Assembly (NCBI GenBank): GCA_031257175.1
Contig: JAIRPE010000101.1
Coordinates: forward strand, 1 to 33,019
Direction of reading: 5' to 3'
From: Eubacteriales Family XIII. Incertae Sedis bacterium
Lineage (GTDB): Bacteria; Bacillota; Clostridia; Peptostreptococcales; Anaerovoracaceae
Length of the DNA: 33,019 nt
Positions within the stretch are counted from its first letter, which is position 1, and each line of letters begins with the position of its first letter. Made by a program: the position numbers and the translations under genes. This document shows positions 16,556-26,004 of the stretch, piece by piece. Under the pieces are notes generated by a model that was not told the DNA's origin, did not search any database, and saw nothing but the letters and a program-made list of their open reading frames with translations.

Positions 16556-16593
16556 GGCGGGCCCCTGAACCCATATCGGTTCAGGGGCCCGCC
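16556..16593 (+). terminator. Terminator-like hairpin after the SLH/cohesin-like gene
   Basis: Perfect 16-bp stem GGCGGGCCCCTGAACC/GGTTCAGGGGCCCGCC with a 6-nt loop; weak T-tract. Confidence 0.65.
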
Positions 16594-16732
16594 CCGTCTT
16601 GAACCGATTTTGCCTAAACAGGGGGAACCTGCTCGTGCATGAACTAGGATAAATAGCTCTTGGAACGAATAAAACTGCGGGAGAGGGTTGATTTTAGGAA
16701 AATTGCAGACTAGGGGAATAATGGCGCGGCGT

Positions 16733-16748
16733 TGGCACGGGGATTGCA
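16733..16748 (+). promoter_or_regulatory. Sigma-54 (RpoN) -24/-12 promoter TGGCACGGGGATTGCA upstream of kdd
   Basis: Exact match to TGGCAC-N5-TTGCA; invariant GG (16734-16735) and GC (16746-16747) separated by 10 nt. Confidence 0.85.
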
Positions 16749-16853
16749 ACGTTATTGAACGTTGGCGAGAAACGCGGAACGGCGTGTTCGGCCGTCGTTC
16801 AATGCGATGTTTTGAGCTATTGGTTATTATTGTAAGAGAAAAGGAGATTAATG

Positions 16854-17885
16854 ATGAAAAAAGGATGCCCATTCGGCACGCACAGGGTCATTTCGCCCAA
16901 AGGCGTGCTGCCTCAGCCCGCAGACGTGATTGACAACAGCATGGAGATTTACGACAACGAGGTTCTCATCGACGTCCAGACCTTGAACGTCGATTCGGCC
17001 AGCTTCACCCAGATCGAGAAGCAGGCGAAGGGCGACGTGGAAGAAATCAAGAAAATCATGAAAGGCATAGTGGCGAAGGCCGGCAAGCACAAGAATCCCG
17101 TGACCGGCTCGGGCGGCATGCTTATCGGCACGGTCAAGGAGATAGGGCCGGCGTACAAGGGCAGCCTGAAGGTGGGGGACAAGCTGGCCACGCTGGTCTC
17201 GCTCTCCCTCACGCCGTTGGTCATAAAGGAGATACACGAGGTCAGGCCCGACATAGACCAGGTGGACATCACGGGCCAGGCCATACTGTTCCAGAGCGGC
17301 ATATACGCGGTGCTGCCCAAGGACATGCCTGAGACACTGGCGCTGTCCGTGCTGGACGTGGCGGGGGCCCCCGCGCAGGCGGCCAGGCTGGTGCAGTCGG
17401 GCGACACGGTGGTGGTCATAGGCGGCGGCGGCAAGTCAGGGCTTCTTTGCCTCCACGAAGCCAAGAAGAGGGCCGGCGTGACGGGCAAGGTCATATGCGT
17501 GGGCGGCAGCGAGAAGTCCACGGACAGGGCCAGAAAGCTGAACCTGGCGGACGAGTATTTCGCTTTCGACGCCACCGACGCGGTGGGGCTCTACAACAAG
17601 ATTTCAGACCTCACCGACGGCAAGCTGGCGGACGTGGTCATAAACTGCGTCAACATAGAGAACACCGAGATGTCGTCAATACTGGCCTGCAGGGACAGGG
17701 GCACGGTGTACTTCTTCTCCATGGCCACCAGCTTCACGAAGGCCGCCCTGGGCGCGGAAGGCGTGGGCAAGGACGTGAACATGATTATCGGCAACGGCTA
17801 CTGCAAAGACCACGCGGACATATCGCTTCAGGTGCTGCGCGAGAACCCGGCGCTCAGGAAGCTGTTTGAGGAGATGTACGCCTGA
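16854..17885 (+). CDS. kdd: L-erythro-3,5-diaminohexanoate dehydrogenase
   Basis: CPFGTHRVISPKGVLPQPADVIDN N-terminus; Rossmann VVVIGGGGKSGLLCLHEAKKR; linked to kam genes. Confidence 0.9.
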   Translation: MKKGCPFGTHRVISPKGVLPQPADVIDNSMEIYDNEVLIDVQTLNVDSASFTQIEKQAKGDVEEIKKIMKGIVAKAGKHKNPVTGSGGMLIGTVKEIGPAYKGSLKVGDKLATLVSLSLTPLVIKEIHEVRPDIDQVDITGQAILFQSGIYAVLPKDMPETLALSVLDVAGAPAQAARLVQSGDTVVVIGGGGKSGLLCLHEAKKRAGVTGKVICVGGSEKSTDRARKLNLADEYFAFDATDAVGLYNKISDLTDGKLADVVINCVNIENTEMSSILACRDRGTVYFFSMATSFTKAALGAEGVGKDVNMIIGNGYCKDHADISLQVLRENPALRKLFEEMYA

Positions 17886-18079: not shown

Positions 18080-19348
18080 ATGGCAGCGATTAGAAATTGG
18101 AAAGACGTCCCGCTTTGGAAAAACGTAAGCGACGAGGAATGGAACGATTGGCTATGGCAGATAAGGAACAGGCTTTCCAGCGTGGATGAGATAAGGCAGG
18201 TGGTCAACCTGACCGATCAAGAGGCGGCGGACATCGAGAAGGTCATGGATGGCTTCCGTGTGGGCATAACGCCCTATTACGCCTCTTTGATGGACCCGGA
18301 CGACCCCAGATGCCCGGTTAGGATGCAGGCGGTGCCCACCATAGCCGAGACGCGCAGGGGCGCGGGCGACATGGAGGACCCCCTCCACGAGGACGAGGAC
18401 TCCCCCGCGCCGGGCCTGACGCACAGATACCCTGACAGGGTGCTGTTCCTGATAACGGACCAATGCTCCATGTACTGCCGGCACTGCACCAGGCGCAGGA
18501 TGGCGGGCGAGCATGACGGCGCCAGGAGCAAGGAGGACATCGAGAAGTGCTTGGAGTACATCAGGAAGACCCCCGTGGTCAGGGACGTGCTGCTCTCGGG
18601 CGGCGACTGCCTCTGCGTGTCGGACGAGTTCCTGGAGTACGTCATAAGCGAGCTGCGTAAGATACCCCATGTGGAGATAGTGCGGCTGGGCTCCAGGACG
18701 CCCGTGGTCATGCCCATGCGCATAACGGACAACCTGGTCAACATGCTGAAGAAATACCATCCCATATGGCTGAACACGCATTTCAACCACCCCAAGGAGA
18801 TGACGCCTGAGGCGCAGGAGGCCGTGCGCAAACTGGCCGACGCGGGCATCCCCCTGGGCAATCAGAGCGTGCTGCTTCGCGGGCTGAACGACTGCCCCCA
18901 CATCATGCGCGATCTGGTGCATGTGCTGGTGAAGAACAGGGTCAGGCCGTACTACATTTACCAATGCGACCTTTCCTTGGGAATAGAGCATTTCAGAACC
19001 AAGGTGTCCAAGGGCATAGAGATAATAGAAGGGCTGCGGGGGCACACCTCGGGCTTCGCGGTGCCCACCTTCGTGGTGGACGCGCCCGGAGGCGGCGGCA
19101 AGACGCCCGTCATGCCCCAGTACGTCATTTCCCACACGCCCAAGAAGGTGGTGCTGCGCAACTATGAGGGCGTCATAACCTCGTACACGGAGCCGAAGCA
19201 CATGGAGGACATACCCTGCACCTGCGATTACTGCACGGGCAAGAAAAAGTACGAATACGAGGGCGTGGCGGCCATATCGGTGACGGACAAATTGTCCATA
19301 GAGCCTGCCGACCTGGCGAGGCACAAGCGGAACAGCATGAAGAAATAG
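18080..19348 (+). CDS. kamA: Lysine 2,3-aminomutase (radical SAM, PLP)
   Basis: Radical SAM motif DQCSMYCRHCTRRR; C-terminal cysteines CTCDYC; VDAPGGGGKTPVMPQY. Confidence 0.95.
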   Translation: MAAIRNWKDVPLWKNVSDEEWNDWLWQIRNRLSSVDEIRQVVNLTDQEAADIEKVMDGFRVGITPYYASLMDPDDPRCPVRMQAVPTIAETRRGAGDMEDPLHEDEDSPAPGLTHRYPDRVLFLITDQCSMYCRHCTRRRMAGEHDGARSKEDIEKCLEYIRKTPVVRDVLLSGGDCLCVSDEFLEYVISELRKIPHVEIVRLGSRTPVVMPMRITDNLVNMLKKYHPIWLNTHFNHPKEMTPEAQEAVRKLADAGIPLGNQSVLLRGLNDCPHIMRDLVHVLVKNRVRPYYIYQCDLSLGIEHFRTKVSKGIEIIEGLRGHTSGFAVPTFVVDAPGGGGKTPVMPQYVISHTPKKVVLRNYEGVITSYTEPKHMEDIPCTCDYCTGKKKYEYEGVAAISVTDKLSIEPADLARHKRNSMKK

Positions 19349-19359
19349 CGGGGTGCGCG

Positions 19360-20499
19360 TTGGGACTGCTGCGGGACATTGCGAGGGAGCATAAGACAGT
19401 CTCCCTGGTGGGGATGGCCAAGAACGCGGGCAAAACCACGGCCATGAACTACCTGATAGCCCAGGCCGAGGACGAGGGCGTCAGGCTGGGAGTCACGTCC
19501 ACCGGGAGGGACGGCGAGTCCGTGGACGTGGTGACGGGCACGGAGAAGCCCAAGGTCTACCTGACGGAGGACACGCTGGTGGCGGTTCCCGCGGGGCTTT
19601 ACGACCTTTCAGGCGCGGGGCTTGAGATACTGCGCATGACGGAATTTTCATCGCCTCTGGGGCAGGTGATGCTGTGCAGGGTGGCCGAGGCGGGCTACGT
19701 CCAGGTGGCGGGGCCCGTGACCACGGCCGGCCAGAGGCGGATTTGCGCGGAAATGCTGGCGGCGGGCGTGGATTTGGTGCTTATAGACGGGGCCATAGAC
19801 CGCAAATCCATAGCGGCGCCCGACGCCTCGGACGCCATAATACTGTCCACGGGCGCGGCCCTGTCCCGCAACATGACCAAGGCGGCCGAGGAGACGGGCT
19901 ACGCGACGGAACTGTTCGGCCTGCCCGTGCTGGAGGACGCGGCGGCGCGGGAGGCCATAGCGGCCAGGCCCGACAGGCTTCTGGCCATAGGCTCGCCTGC
20001 GGGCGGCGCGGCGGGCGGGGCGCTGGCCGTGCCTCTGGAGATGAAAACGGGGCTTCGGGCAGGCGCGAGGATTAGGGAGGCGCTGGCGGTTTTCGACAAG
20101 GCCGAGGCAGGGGGCGGCGCCAGGGCGGACAAGGCCAATGAGGGCGGCGGGGGCTCGCGGGGCGGGGCCTCGGGGGCTGACGGCAAAAGCGGCGCGGGGA
20201 TGTTCTACATATACGTGCCGGGGGCGCTGACCGACGGAATGCTGTCGGGTCTGGAGCCTAAAACCCTCAGCGGCGCGGCGTTCGTGGTCACGGACCCCAC
20301 GAAGATATTTTTGGACAGGCTCAACTACAAGCGGCTCAAGGCCAGAGGGCTGAGGATTTTCACGATGGCGGGGGTGAAGGTGGCGGCAGTCACCGTGAAC
20401 CCCACCTCGCCCGAGGGCTATTCCTTCGACAGCGGCGAGTTCATCGAGGCGGTCAGGGCGGTGACGGGCGGAATCCCGGTGATAGACGTGCGGATGTGA
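19360..20499 (+). CDS. kamB: Lysine 5,6-aminomutase reactivase subunit KamB (P-loop protein)
   Basis: Walker A GMAKNAGKTTAMNYL; position between kamA and the MutS-like kamC; TTG start. Confidence 0.8.
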   Translation: MGLLRDIAREHKTVSLVGMAKNAGKTTAMNYLIAQAEDEGVRLGVTSTGRDGESVDVVTGTEKPKVYLTEDTLVAVPAGLYDLSGAGLEILRMTEFSSPLGQVMLCRVAEAGYVQVAGPVTTAGQRRICAEMLAAGVDLVLIDGAIDRKSIAAPDASDAIILSTGAALSRNMTKAAEETGYATELFGLPVLEDAAAREAIAARPDRLLAIGSPAGGAAGGALAVPLEMKTGLRAGARIREALAVFDKAEAGGGARADKANEGGGGSRGGASGADGKSGAGMFYIYVPGALTDGMLSGLEPKTLSGAAFVVTDPTKIFLDRLNYKRLKARGLRIFTMAGVKVAAVTVNPTSPEGYSFDSGEFIEAVRAVTGGIPVIDVRM

Positions 20500-22142
20500 A
20501 ACATATGTTGGCAAGCGAAAGAACCAAGAGGGAATTAGGCTTTCTGGACGTCCTGTCGAGGGTCAGGCCGCGCAGCCCCTTCGGCAAGCGGCGCATGGAC
20601 AATCTCATGCCCTACATGCCGGGCGACGAGGCCAGGCTGGAGGGCGAGCTGGACAGGCTGGAGCGCATGTGCCGCGTCTCCCTTTCCCATAGGCAGGAAT
20701 GGGAGGGGCTGGCGGCGGTTTTCCACGCCATGAAGGACGTCAGCGCCACTATAGAGCGCAGCAGCCACGAGACCTTGAGCGTGGTGGAGCTGTACGAGGT
20801 CAAGGCGCTGCTGCTGCAGATGGAGGAGTCGCGGGCCATAATAGCGGGCATGGGGGACGGCTGGCCGTCCAATCTCACCCCGGCGGCCGCTGACGGCCTG
20901 CTGGATTTGCTGGACCCCGAAGGCAGCCGCCTGCCCGCTTTCTATATTTACGACCAATTTTCGGAAAAACTAGCAAATTTGCGCAAAGAGAAGAAGGACA
21001 AGGAACTGGCGCTGCGCAGGGAGCAGAAGAAGCTGGCCGAGGAGGCGGAGGCCCGTCTGGGCATAAAGCTCTCCCCCAAATTCGACGCGTCCGTCCCGCG
21101 AAGCGAGACAGAGAAGCTGGCCGCCGCCGAGTCGTCCCCTTTGCTCCAGGTGGGGGGCGAGGATTTCTCGTCGGTGACCTTCCAACTGCGGCTGGGCGCG
21201 GAGGGCAGGCGGCTGACGGCTGAGGCGGACACCATAGGGGCCCTGGTGGAGGACGAGGAGCTGGCCGTAAGGAAGAGGCTCTCAAAGGAGGTGGCGAAGT
21301 ACGCCCCCCTGTTGCTGAAGAACTGCCGCGTCATAGGGGACGCGGACTTCGTCATGGCCAAGACGGATCACGCCATACGCCACGACTGCGTGAAGCCCGG
21401 CGTGGTGCGCATACACACCCTGCGACTGGAGGACGGCAGGTATCTGCCACTGGAGCGCCTGCTCCGCGAGAAGGGCCAGGATTATTCGCCTGTGAGCATT
21501 TTCCTGGACGAAGGGGTGTCCTGCATCACGGGCGCGAACATGGGCGGCAAGACGATTTCCATGAAGCTGGCGGGCCTGGTGGCGCTGATGGCGCAGCACG
21601 GCTTTTTCGTGCCCTGCAAGTCGGCCTTCGTGGGGCTTTCCTCATCGGCGCACATACTGATAGGGGACAGCCAGGACATGCAGAAGGGGCTTTCCAGCTT
21701 CGGCAGCGAGATGGAGGGCCTGGGGGAGATATTGTCCAAAAGCGGCGAGAAGGCGCTGATTTTCATCGACGAGATAGCCGGCTCCACGAATCCCGCTGAG
21801 GGGCGGGCGCTGACGAAGGCGCTGATAGGCTATCTGTCGAAGAGGCCCTACATAACGCTGATGACCACCCACTTCGAGAGGGTGGCCGAAGGGGCGGGGG
21901 TGGTGAACCTGCGCGTGCACGGCCTGTCAAGCGCGGACTTCGACCGCCTGTCGGCAGAGCTTAGGAACGCGGGCATCAACGACAGGATAGAAATCATCAC
22001 CAGGTTTATGGATTACAGATTGGAGAGGGTGAACGGCGGCGCGGAGATTCCCAAGGACGCATTGCGCATAGCGGAGATACTGGGGATAAAGCGCGAGATA
22101 ATAGATGGGGCGAGGGAGATATTGGAGGCGCAGGCCCAATGA
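20496..22142 (+). CDS. kamC: Lysine 5,6-aminomutase reactivase ATPase KamC (MutS-family ATPase)
   Basis: MutS-type Walker A TGANMGGKTISMKLAGLVALMAQHGFFVPC, Walker B ALIFIDEIAGSTNPAEGRAL; GTG start overlaps the kamB stop (ATG at 20505 is an alternative). Confidence 0.83.
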   Translation: MKHMLASERTKRELGFLDVLSRVRPRSPFGKRRMDNLMPYMPGDEARLEGELDRLERMCRVSLSHRQEWEGLAAVFHAMKDVSATIERSSHETLSVVELYEVKALLLQMEESRAIIAGMGDGWPSNLTPAAADGLLDLLDPEGSRLPAFYIYDQFSEKLANLRKEKKDKELALRREQKKLAEEAEARLGIKLSPKFDASVPRSETEKLAAAESSPLLQVGGEDFSSVTFQLRLGAEGRRLTAEADTIGALVEDEELAVRKRLSKEVAKYAPLLLKNCRVIGDADFVMAKTDHAIRHDCVKPGVVRIHTLRLEDGRYLPLERLLREKGQDYSPVSIFLDEGVSCITGANMGGKTISMKLAGLVALMAQHGFFVPCKSAFVGLSSSAHILIGDSQDMQKGLSSFGSEMEGLGEILSKSGEKALIFIDEIAGSTNPAEGRALTKALIGYLSKRPYITLMTTHFERVAEGAGVVNLRVHGLSSADFDRLSAELRNAGINDRIEIITRFMDYRLERVNGGAEIPKDALRIAEILGIKREIIDGAREILEAQAQ

Positions 22143-22293: not shown

Positions 22294-23853
22294 ATGAGCA
22301 AACTGAATTTAGACCCTGCGGTCATCGAGAGCGCCAGGGGCTGCGCGGCGAGGATAGCCGCCAGCGTCCAGAGCTTCATCGAGCGCCACACCACGGTCAG
22401 CACGGAGAGAACCGTGGCGCGGCTGTTGGGCGTGGACGGGGTGGATGAGATGGAATCGCCGCTTTCCAACGTGCTTATCGACCAGCTGAAGGAAGCCGGG
22501 GTTTTGAGCAGGGGGGCCGCCTACTGGATAGGCAACGCCGCCATAGCCACCGGCCTTGGCCCTCAGAAAATCGCCGAGGAAGCGGCGGCAGGCAGGCTGG
22601 ACGTGACCAAACTGCCCGCCGCGCCCGTGAAGGACGCCGAGAGCGCGGTCATGCCCATAGCGAAAGAGGCGCTGGCGGCCATCAAGAAGCAGCGGGCCGA
22701 CAGGGAGAGGATGATAAAGGACATAGGCGAGGGCCGGCAGCCCTACCTCTACGTCATAGTCGCCACGGGCAATATCTATGAGGACGTGGTGCAGGCCCAG
22801 GCGGCCGCCAGGCAGGGCGCCGACATCATCGCGGTCATAAGGACCACGGGCCAGAGCCTGCTGGACTACGTGCCCTACGGCGCCACCACGGAAGGCTTCG
22901 GCGGCACCTACGCCACCCAGGAGAACTTCCGCATAATGCGCAAGGCGCTGGACGAGGTGGGCGACGAGGTGGGCCGCTACATAAGGCTCTGCAACTACTC
23001 CTCAGGCATGTGCATGCCCGAGATCGCGGCCATGGGCGCGCTGGAGAGGCTGGACGTCATGCTGAACGACGCCCTGTACGGCATACTCTTCCGCGACATC
23101 AACATGCAGAGGACGCTGGTGGACCAGTTCTTCTCCAGGGTGATAATAGGCTACAGCGGCATAGTGTTCAACTCAGGCGAGGACAACTACCTGACCACCG
23201 CGGACGCCTTCGAGGAGGCGCACACGGTGCTGGCCTCCCAGTTCATAAACGAGCAGCTGGCCGTGCTGGCGAACATACCCGAAGAGCAGATGGGCCTGGG
23301 GCACGCCTTCGAGATGGACCCGTCCATCGAGGACGGCTTCCTCTACGAGCTGGCGCAGGCCGTCATGGCCAGGGAGATTTTCCCCAAGGCGTCGCTGAAA
23401 TACATGCCGCCCACGAAATTCATGACGGGCAATATCTTCAAGGGCCACATCCAGGACGCGCTGTTCAACCTAATAGCCGTCTGGTCGGGCCAATCCCTGC
23501 AGCTTCTGGGGATGCTGACGGAGGCCATACACACGCCCCATCTCCAGGACAGGTTCTTGTCAATAGAGAATGCTTCTTACATTTTTAATAACGCGAGGAA
23601 TTTAGGGGAAGAAGTGGAATTCAAGAAAGGCGGCATCATCCAGAAGCGGGCGGCGCTGGTTCTGGGCGAGGCGGACAAGCTGCTGCGCCAGATAGAGGCG
23701 GACGGGCTGTTCGCCACCATAGAGCAGGGCAAGTTCGGCGGCGTGAAGCGCGCCAGGGACGGCGGCAAGGGGCTGGAAGGCGTCGTGGTGAAGCACGGCG
23801 AGTATTTCAACCCGTTCATCCCGCTCATGCTGAAGGGAGGCGATGCGATATGA
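22294..23853 (+). CDS. kamD: Lysine 5,6-aminomutase alpha subunit
   Basis: MSKLNLDPAVIESARGCAARIA; long conserved alpha subunit TIM-barrel; overlaps kamE; AAGGAGG RBS. Confidence 0.93.
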   Translation: MSKLNLDPAVIESARGCAARIAASVQSFIERHTTVSTERTVARLLGVDGVDEMESPLSNVLIDQLKEAGVLSRGAAYWIGNAAIATGLGPQKIAEEAAAGRLDVTKLPAAPVKDAESAVMPIAKEALAAIKKQRADRERMIKDIGEGRQPYLYVIVATGNIYEDVVQAQAAARQGADIIAVIRTTGQSLLDYVPYGATTEGFGGTYATQENFRIMRKALDEVGDEVGRYIRLCNYSSGMCMPEIAAMGALERLDVMLNDALYGILFRDINMQRTLVDQFFSRVIIGYSGIVFNSGEDNYLTTADAFEEAHTVLASQFINEQLAVLANIPEEQMGLGHAFEMDPSIEDGFLYELAQAVMAREIFPKASLKYMPPTKFMTGNIFKGHIQDALFNLIAVWSGQSLQLLGMLTEAIHTPHLQDRFLSIENASYIFNNARNLGEEVEFKKGGIIQKRAALVLGEADKLLRQIEADGLFATIEQGKFGGVKRARDGGKGLEGVVVKHGEYFNPFIPLMLKGGDAI

Positions 23854-24614
23854 CTAAGACGGCAGGTTCCGCAGTTGATTTGACGAAGGTGAAGCCCTAT
23901 GGCGACACCATGAACGACGGCATGACGGAGCTGACGTTCACATTGCCCGTGCCTTACGGGCCTGAGGCCGACGAGGCGGCCAGGCAGCTGGCCAGGAAGA
24001 TGGGGCTGGACGAGCCGAACGCGGCTTTTTCCAAGGATTTGGGCCAAGGCTTCACCTTCTTCGTGGTATACGGCAAGTGCCAGCACTCCGTGGACTTCAC
24101 GACCATAAAGGTGGCCAAGGCGGACGTGGAGGTGATGAGCAGGGAAGAATGCCAGGACTACATCGCCAAGAACATCAAGAGGGACGTGGTCATAGTGGGC
24201 GCCACCACGGGCACGGACGCCCATACCGTGGGCATAGACGCCATCATGAACATGAAGGGCTTCCACGGGCATTACGGATTGGAGAGGTACAAGGGGATAG
24301 AAGCGGTGAACCTGGGCTCCCAGGTTCCCAACGAGACGCTGGTGGCCAAGGCCATAGAGCTTAACGCGGACGCCATCATCGTGTCCCAGATAGTGACCCA
24401 GAAGGACGTCCACGTGCTGAACCTGACGAACCTGGTGGAGCTGGTGGAGGCCGAGGGCATAAGGGACAAGGTGGTGCTGGCCTGCGGCGGCCCCAGGATT
24501 TCCTACGAGCTGGCGCAGGAACTGGGCTATGACGCGGGATTCGGGGCGCACACCTACGCCGAGGACGTGGCCTCCTTCATCCTGACGGAGGTAGTGAGGC
24601 GCGGGCTGGTATAG
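23850..24614 (+). CDS. kamE: Lysine 5,6-aminomutase beta subunit (B12-binding)
   Basis: B12-binding motif TDAHTVGIDAIMNMKGFHGHYGLERYKG (DxHxxG); SQIVTQKDVHVLNLTNLVELVEAEG. Confidence 0.95.
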   Translation: MTKTAGSAVDLTKVKPYGDTMNDGMTELTFTLPVPYGPEADEAARQLARKMGLDEPNAAFSKDLGQGFTFFVVYGKCQHSVDFTTIKVAKADVEVMSREECQDYIAKNIKRDVVIVGATTGTDAHTVGIDAIMNMKGFHGHYGLERYKGIEAVNLGSQVPNETLVAKAIELNADAIIVSQIVTQKDVHVLNLTNLVELVEAEGIRDKVVLACGGPRISYELAQELGYDAGFGAHTYAEDVASFILTEVVRRGLV

Positions 24615-24685
24615 CTAGCGGAGCGGAGCGGCGGCGCGGGGCCTTTTAGGGCCTCTCGCGGGCCGTGACGCGGGAGGGAGTTTTT

Positions 24686-25366
24686 ATGAAAGACAAGATA
24701 AAGACCGCTGACGAAGCCGTCTCCATGATTGGCGACGGGGCGGCCGTGATGGTGGGCGGCTTCATGGCCTGCGGCACGCCTGAAATTTTGATTGACGCGT
24801 TGGTCAGGAAGGGTTCCAAGAACCTCACCATCATCTGCAACGACGCGGGGGTGCCCGGTAGGGGCGTGGCCAAGCTTTTGACCAACGGGCAGATAAAGAC
24901 GCTCATAGCCTCCCACGTGGGGCTGAACCCCGAGGTGGCGCAGCGCATGAACACGGACGTGCCCGAGGACAAGCTGGAATGCCTGCTGATCCCCCAGGGC
25001 ACCCTGGCTGAGAGGATAAGGGCCGGCGGCTGCGGCCTGGGCGGCTTCCTGACGCCCACGGGCGTGGGCACCATCGTGGCCGAGGGCAAGCAGGTCATCA
25101 CCCTGGACGGGCGGGATTATTTGCTGGAGCTGCCCCTGCGGGCGGACTACGCCCTCATCAGAGGCAACGTGACCGACAAGTTCGGCAACACCACCTACCA
25201 CGGCACGACCCGCACCTTCAACCTCATGATGGCCACCGCGGCCGAGCATGTGATAGTGGGTACCTGCAAAATCGTGGAGGTGGGGGAGATAGACCCCAAC
25301 TCCGTGGTGACGTCGGGGATTTTCGTGGATTCCATCGTGGGAGGTGAGCAACCGTGGCAGATATAA
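24686..25366 (+). CDS. atoD: Acetoacetate/butyrate-type CoA-transferase subunit A
   Basis: [62 protein letters not shown]. Confidence 0.88.
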
Positions 25367-26004
25367 AGGAGATTATCGCGGCAAGGGTGGCGAAGGAGCT
25401 GCATGACGGCGACGTGGTGAATCTGGGCATCGGCCTGCCCACCATGGTGGCCGACTTCCTGCCCGAGGGAGTCAGCATCATCCTCCAGTCCGAGAACGGC
25501 ATAATGGGCATGGGCCCGGCGCCCGAGCCGGGCAAGGAGGACGTGGACATAGTCAACGCCGGCGGCCAGTGCGTGACCATAGTCCCGGGCGCCATGTTCT
25601 TCGACAGCGCCACCTCCTTCGGAATCATACGGGGCGGGCACGTGGACGTGACGGTGCTGGGCGCCCTGGAGGTGGACGAGAAAGGCAATCTGGCCAACTG
25701 GATAGTGCCAGGCAAGATAGTGCCGGGCATGGGCGGCGCCATGGACCTGGTGGTGGGCGCGCGCAAGGTGGTCATAGCCATGACCCACACCCAAAAGGGC
25801 AAGCCAAAGATTCTGAAAAGCTGCACCCTGCCCTACACGGCGGTGGGCGTGGTGGATTTGATAATAACGGAGATGGGCGTGATGGAAGTGACCCCCGAGG
25901 GCATAGTCCTGAAGGAGCTGCACCCGGACTACACGGTGGAGCAGGTGAAAGAGGCCACGGAGGCCACGCTCCTGGTCAGCCCTGATCTGAAGGTCATGGC
26001 GTAG
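25354..26004 (+). CDS. atoA: Acetoacetate/butyrate-type CoA-transferase subunit B
   Basis: [35 protein letters not shown] (SENG catalytic Glu motif); [25 protein letters not shown] start overlapping subunit A. Confidence 0.9.

Follow-up and report, generated by a model that had tools for sequence, protein, structure and literature searches.

The analysed stretch of DNA, hereafter the window, comprises 33,019 nucleotides from a gut bacterium of the Anaerovoracaceae (Clostridiales Family XIII), whose genome is assembled as 2.04 Mb in 138 contigs and is 88% complete. It contains a lysine-to-butyrate operon in the order kdd-kamA-kamB-kamC-kamD-kamE-atoD-atoA, with all genes on the plus strand downstream of a predicted sigma-54 (-24/-12) promoter, which is itself preceded by a palindromic candidate enhancer (UAS) lying within an inverted repeat (Table 1).

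Table 1. Features of the kdd upstream region and operon, numbered from the first nucleotide of the window.
Feature	Position	Strand	Basis
16-bp perfect inverted repeat enclosing the UAS	16556..16593	+	Fold z -6.7
UAS TGAACCCATATCGGTTCA	16566..16583		Exact TGAACC-N6-GGTTCA; ends 149 nt before promoter
Possible degenerate second UAS, left half TTGAACCGATTTT only	16599..16614	+	Sequence, weak
Sigma-54 (-24/-12) promoter TGGCACGGGGATTGCA	16733..16748	+	Exact pattern, matrix score, kept position before kdd in relatives
Inverted repeat ATTGAACG...CGTTCAAT at/after predicted start	16754..16803		Weak RNA fold, z -1.6
Predicted transcription start	16758..16760	+	About 12 nt past GC element, from sigma-54 promoter geometry
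kdd, 3,5-diaminohexanoate dehydrogenase, first gene of operon	16851..17885	+	NF052381, 266 bits (cut-off 200); PDB 7dl3, E 1.7e-116
kamA, lysine 2,3-aminomutase	18080..19348	+	TIGR03820
kamB, lysine 5,6-aminomutase reactivase subunit	19360..20499	+	NF052386
kamC, reactivase ATPase (MutS-like)	20496..22142	+	NF052383
kamD, lysine 5,6-aminomutase alpha	22294..23853	+	NF052384
kamE, lysine 5,6-aminomutase beta	23850..24614	+	NF052385
atoD, CoA-transferase subunit A	24665..25366	+	TIGR02429
atoA, CoA-transferase subunit B, final gene of the run	25354..26004	+	TIGR02428

The initial annotation had described an exact match to the RpoN consensus, with GG-N10-GC spacing, about 100 nt before kdd. Both points hold: the match is exact, ten bases separate GG (16734-16735) from GC (16746-16747), and the kdd ATG lies 102 nt beyond the 3' end of the site. 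Together with the preceding T, the promoter reads TTGGCACGGGGATTGCA (16732-16748), in agreement with the context TTGGCAY-N5-TTGCW. A pattern scan allowing up to two mismatches returned four matches in the window, below the 9.4 that shuffling predicts, and this site is the sole exact one. Scored with a 17-column matrix derived from 12 sigma-54 sites of B. thuringiensis (PMC4428206), it reaches 20.2, the maximum possible, with the runner-up in the window at 11.5. A first-order Markov null matched to the composition of the window predicts 3.5e-5 sites scoring this high for the 348-nt gap ahead of kdd, and 0.007 for the window as a whole. As judged from sequence, the presence of a putative RpoN promoter of textbook form ahead of this lysine-fermentation operon is confirmed.

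Across the genome, the pattern TGGCAY-N5-TTGCW has eight exact matches, two of which precede lysine-pathway genes, namely kdd and kal (the latter at C97:26113-26128). Genome-wide counts at one mismatch do not exceed those of a reversed-pattern control; hence, a match carries information only when it is complete or backed by its context, and isolated near-matches were excluded from the evidence. No convincing site precedes lysP or nhaC in this genome, and one relative has a site before lysP. A separate exact match (C5:2724-2739) lies just 5' of the likely rpoN start, which suggests that rpoN may be autoregulated. Another (C40:5812-5827, minus strand) stands before a gene of the sodium/solute-symporter type, after which come genes of the CoA-transferase type, and no enhancer-binding protein (EBP) gene was seen near it. 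In the kdd leader, the inverted repeat at the predicted start resembles UAS half-sites; it was also considered as an RNA switch and rejected on account of its weak fold.

The -24/-12 match could in principle be fortuitous, with kdd transcribed by a housekeeping sigma factor, as some relatives seem to manage without a sigma-54 site before this gene. The low chance expectation given above argues against this, as does a search for sigma-70-like promoters on the plus strand between 16400 and 16900, which found none. The site moreover recurs before kdd (score of at least 14) in 68 of the 81 loci with an EBP immediately upstream, and we consider a chance match highly improbable. Operon-internal control positions lack such sites (0/84 for kamA, 0/28 for inner kdd copies). 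Leaders of kce also lack them (0/10), which counts against the proposed control. Five loci of order-mates without an adjacent EBP show no site across the 18-kb stretch, and their genomes do have rpoN.

The initial annotation had further expected rpoN in the genome, an activating EBP encoded outside the window, and a link of that EBP to kce/kal or to lysine transporters. A single intact rpoN is located on contig C5 and encodes all three sigma-54 domains (AID, CBD, and DBD). Three full EBPs are present, on contigs C15, C43, and C85, of which the first carries an N-terminal domain related to Kdd (a form referred to here as Kdd-EBP). The C15 EBP (C15:14054-16153, 699 aa) combines a Sigma54_activat AAA+ domain, with the Walker A motif GETGVGK, and a Fis-type HTH; its sigma-54 contact loop reads GAFTGS, and that of its nearest relatives GAFTGA. 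Its gene is followed by genes for two NhaC-type antiporters and for a LysP-type permease, which bears out the expected transporter link, and in close relatives the EBP gene is found beside lysP or kce. The C43 EBP has a PAS domain and belongs to an ethanolamine-type (eut-type) cluster with an exact sigma-54 site of its own (C43:19906-19921); the C85 EBP, with CBS and PAS domains, sits among housekeeping genes.

Of 149 relatives searched, 84 contain a Kdd-like stretch, and the fused Kdd-EBP form is common in the bacterium's own family. The usual order in Anaerovoracaceae is kal <- -> Kdd-EBP -> kdd-kamABCDE-atoDA, the regulator gene standing immediately 5' of kdd in most loci, and in other families of the order a PAS-type EBP occupies the place directly before kdd. 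Members of the bacterium's own sub-clade, by comparison, have the EBP away from kdd and adjoining lysP or kce (six loci). The kdd promoter persists there, scoring 15.6 and 14.1 in two relatives, against 20.2 here; a third has a site ahead of a kal-kdd pair (15.1), and a fourth has a weak kdd site (8.1), a point against the proposed control. In the tree, the EBP of this genome shares a clade with those of the sub-clade and the permease-adjacent paralogues, and the kdd-adjacent type lies outside it. A search of 388 genomes gave matches of EBP length within the family and in only two genomes from elsewhere; in the rest of the class the fusion is rare. Cultured carriers include Aminicella lysinilytica DSM 28287, Clostridium aminobutyricum DSM 2634, Anaerovorax sp. 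IOR16, and Emergencia timonensis.

The family also shows several other arrangements. C. aminobutyricum DSM 2634 has at least four Kdd-EBPs, and in several genomes (four loci) a Kdd-EBP gene is followed by two kdd copies in succession. At L103/L104 and L172/L173, two tandem Kdd-EBP genes precede kamA and atoDA; kamDE is absent, kamA has a sigma-54 site before it, and the loci may represent a different beta-lysine pathway. Seven Kdd-EBP paralogues have a divergent sigma-54 site, which in L106 and L108 precedes a DMT/EamA-type permease gene; this link suggests a transport branch of the Kdd-EBP family.

Reading the promoters of the bacterium's own sub-clade yielded the motif TGAACC-N6-GGTTCA, which has a single exact copy in the 2.04-Mb genome, namely the UAS before kdd. 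Its distance from the promoter falls within the 100-250 bp upstream that is expected of such elements, with the caveat that it is nested in a hairpin. Four further copies with one mismatch occur in the genome, two of them before kal. In the Kdd-EBP loci, most of which had no part in motif discovery, 36 of 40 copies (up to one mismatch) fall within the 4% of the sequence that lies before kdd or kal; none was found in the 19 target regions of order-mates that have either another type of regulator or none. A bias toward GAWWTC is seen even in the six unconstrained central columns, which fits a true site. The hairpin enclosing the palindrome could alternatively terminate transcription of the S-layer-type gene upstream of it. 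It lacks a following T run, and terminator prediction made no call there; in relatives such as L095, the UAS flanks do not lengthen the palindrome as they do in the window.

These patterns bear on which EBP would act at kdd. The C15 EBP is not adjacent to kdd in its own genome, and given the completeness of the assembly, another EBP could be missing from it. The sigma-54 promoter might then answer to the C43 or C85 protein, or to an absent regulator of the kdd-adjacent type, all the more as order-mates outside the family have a PAS-type EBP immediately 5' of kdd. However, the genomic settings of the C43 and C85 genes argue against these two, the UAS motif before kdd is that of Kdd-EBP loci and is absent at PAS-EBP loci, and four relatives of the same clade (77-89% complete) likewise carry the C15 type alone. 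Hence, activation by a different EBP appears unlikely, and the C15 Kdd-EBP is the preferred candidate.

A further connection between regulator and promoter comes from loci where both have changed. The GAFTGA loop contacts sigma-54 (PMC7175178), and some kdd-adjacent Kdd-EBPs lack it. A sigma-54 site before kdd (score of at least 12) is present at 53 of 53 loci whose Kdd-EBP has the loop versus none of the ten loop-less loci with a readable kdd leader; before kal, the corresponding figures are 48/54 and 0/12. The enhancer is retained in most loci whose Kdd-EBP lost the loop. Loss of rpoN as the cause of the missing sites was ruled out, as the gene is present in 21 of 21 genomes with and without the loop.

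By parsimony, the tree requires four changes each for the loop and for the kdd promoter. Fisher's test on their association gives p 8e-12, a descriptive value that ignores kinship. Three independent pairs on well-supported branches are all concordant; with about four independent co-losses in all, the sign test falls short of significance. This joint loss links Kdd-EBP and sigma-54 to the kdd promoter, as putative partners, more firmly than the motif alone. In TyrR-type EBPs, the GAFTGA loop has likewise disappeared and the protein works with sigma-70; here, the loss occurred about four times within one family and along with that of the sigma-54 promoter. We infer that the loop-less Kdd-EBPs may act with sigma-70.

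The N-terminal 352 aa of the C15 EBP returned no family in a Pfam search and matched none of the known EBP sensor groups (RR, PAS/V4R/ACT, GAF, PRD). They do align end to end with the Kdd of the window at 29% identity and match PDB 7dl3 with E 1.4e-23. Structure prediction was done on the domain of a homologue (L159), 61% identical, in place of the C15 domain. The model (pLDDT 90.7) has Kdd structures as its best PDB matches, with TM scores of 0.70-0.83, versus about 0.53 for generic dehydrogenases. Homology and fold thus extend over the full length of a Kdd, while the Kdd model NF052381 scores the domain at 145-148 bits (145.6-147.5), below its cut-off of 200, and the glycine-rich loop is missing.

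A comparison of 47 Kdd-EBPs with 68 Kdd sequences showed which residues persist. Retained Kdd-invariant positions include G78, K79, N82, P83, T85, G89, D261, E273, and E303, and with them the motif GK..NP.T..GG. Nearly all 47 EBPs have lost the dinucleotide loop GGGGKSG, whose later positions are mostly L/M and N. E303 corresponds in the alignment to E310 of 3,5-DAHDH, the enzyme of known structure, where this residue hydrogen-bonds the nicotinamide amide of NADPH (PMC9902596); the glutamate is kept in 46 of the 47.

Retention of this nicotinamide contact would suit a domain that is still an active dehydrogenase; alternatively, the domain could be a mere oligomerization module. In either case, the EBP would react to another cue, such as NADPH or redox state, or be constitutive. 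Loss of the dinucleotide loop and the sub-threshold Kdd score weigh against these options, as does retention of the other Kdd positions, and together they have a small though appreciable chance of being correct. With the loop lost and the remaining positions retained, we read the domain instead as a pseudo-enzyme sensor, one that would keep much of the pocket and would have given up catalysis.

A lysine aminomutase gene in B. thuringiensis (PMC4428206) and amino-acid fermentation in clostridia (PMC6615313) are already known to be under the control of sigma-54. In B. thuringiensis HD73, the EBP KamR and a -24/-12 promoter drive kamA (Zhang et al. 2014, as summarized in PMC4428206), so that there, as here, a lysine 2,3-aminomutase gene has such a promoter and a dedicated EBP. 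According to that summary, KamR senses through a PAS domain and is encoded next to its target, with no Kdd-like domain reported, whereas the C15 EBP neither has a PAS domain nor adjoins its putative target, and the operon described there differs from the kdd-kamDE-ato fermentation operon of the window. The Clostridiales regulons of PrdR, LeuR, OrdR, CdsR, and MdeR (Nie et al. 2019, PMC6615313) likewise join one-component EBPs to sigma-54 promoters on Stickland and other amino-acid fermentation operons, and most of their UAS lie 100-250 bp upstream. The main text of that paper names no lysine, kam, or aminomutase gene, and its list of EBP sensors contains no dehydrogenase-like domain. An enzyme-descended sensor is also found in the MocR/GabR transcription factors (PMC6917764, PMC5320631), but there a GntR-type winged helix is joined to a PLP enzyme of aminotransferase fold, in contrast to the EBP and dehydrogenase found here. 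Our search of the open-access literature found no description of a Kdd-like or dehydrogenase-derived EBP sensor, and such a sensor appears to be undescribed there.

The proposal of the initial annotation that RpoN and an EBP would drive the lysine locus is supported and extended by these sequence comparisons, and the enhancer, the identity of the EBP, and the recurrence of the same promoter across the order are additions to it. Building on a promoter, an enhancer, an rpoN gene, EBP domains, and a pattern of conservation established at the level of sequence, we hold with considerable confidence that the C15 Kdd-EBP acts at the UAS to drive the sigma-54 promoter of kdd-kamABCDE-atoDA, with its Kdd-like domain as the sensor. 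The pairing of this EBP with the UAS, the ligand, and activation rather than repression are what we infer within this proposal. Lysine would be taken up and converted to 3,5-diaminohexanoate, and this compound or a close pathway metabolite would most likely bind the Kdd-like domain, freeing the AAA+ domain during lysine fermentation. The EBP, seated on the palindrome, would then reach RNA polymerase-sigma-54 by DNA looping, and its AAA+ ring would open the promoter of the lysine-to-butyrate operon.

More broadly, and with somewhat less assurance, we favor the existence of a class of EBPs in which a catalytically retired Kdd serves as sensor of the enzyme's own substrate. Such EBPs would be the main regulators of the lysine-to-butyrate pathway in Anaerovoracaceae, duplicated for transporter control and rewired about four times from sigma-54 to another sigma factor. 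The missing regulator of this gut pathway would thereby be named, together with a candidate binding site and a testable ligand, and an enzyme-derived sensor would join the EBP sensor types listed in the literature consulted (response regulator, PAS, GAF, V4R, ACT, and others). The family would also offer a natural series in which activator and promoters shed sigma-54 dependence jointly and the enhancer is kept, making the evolution of sigma-factor switching experimentally accessible.
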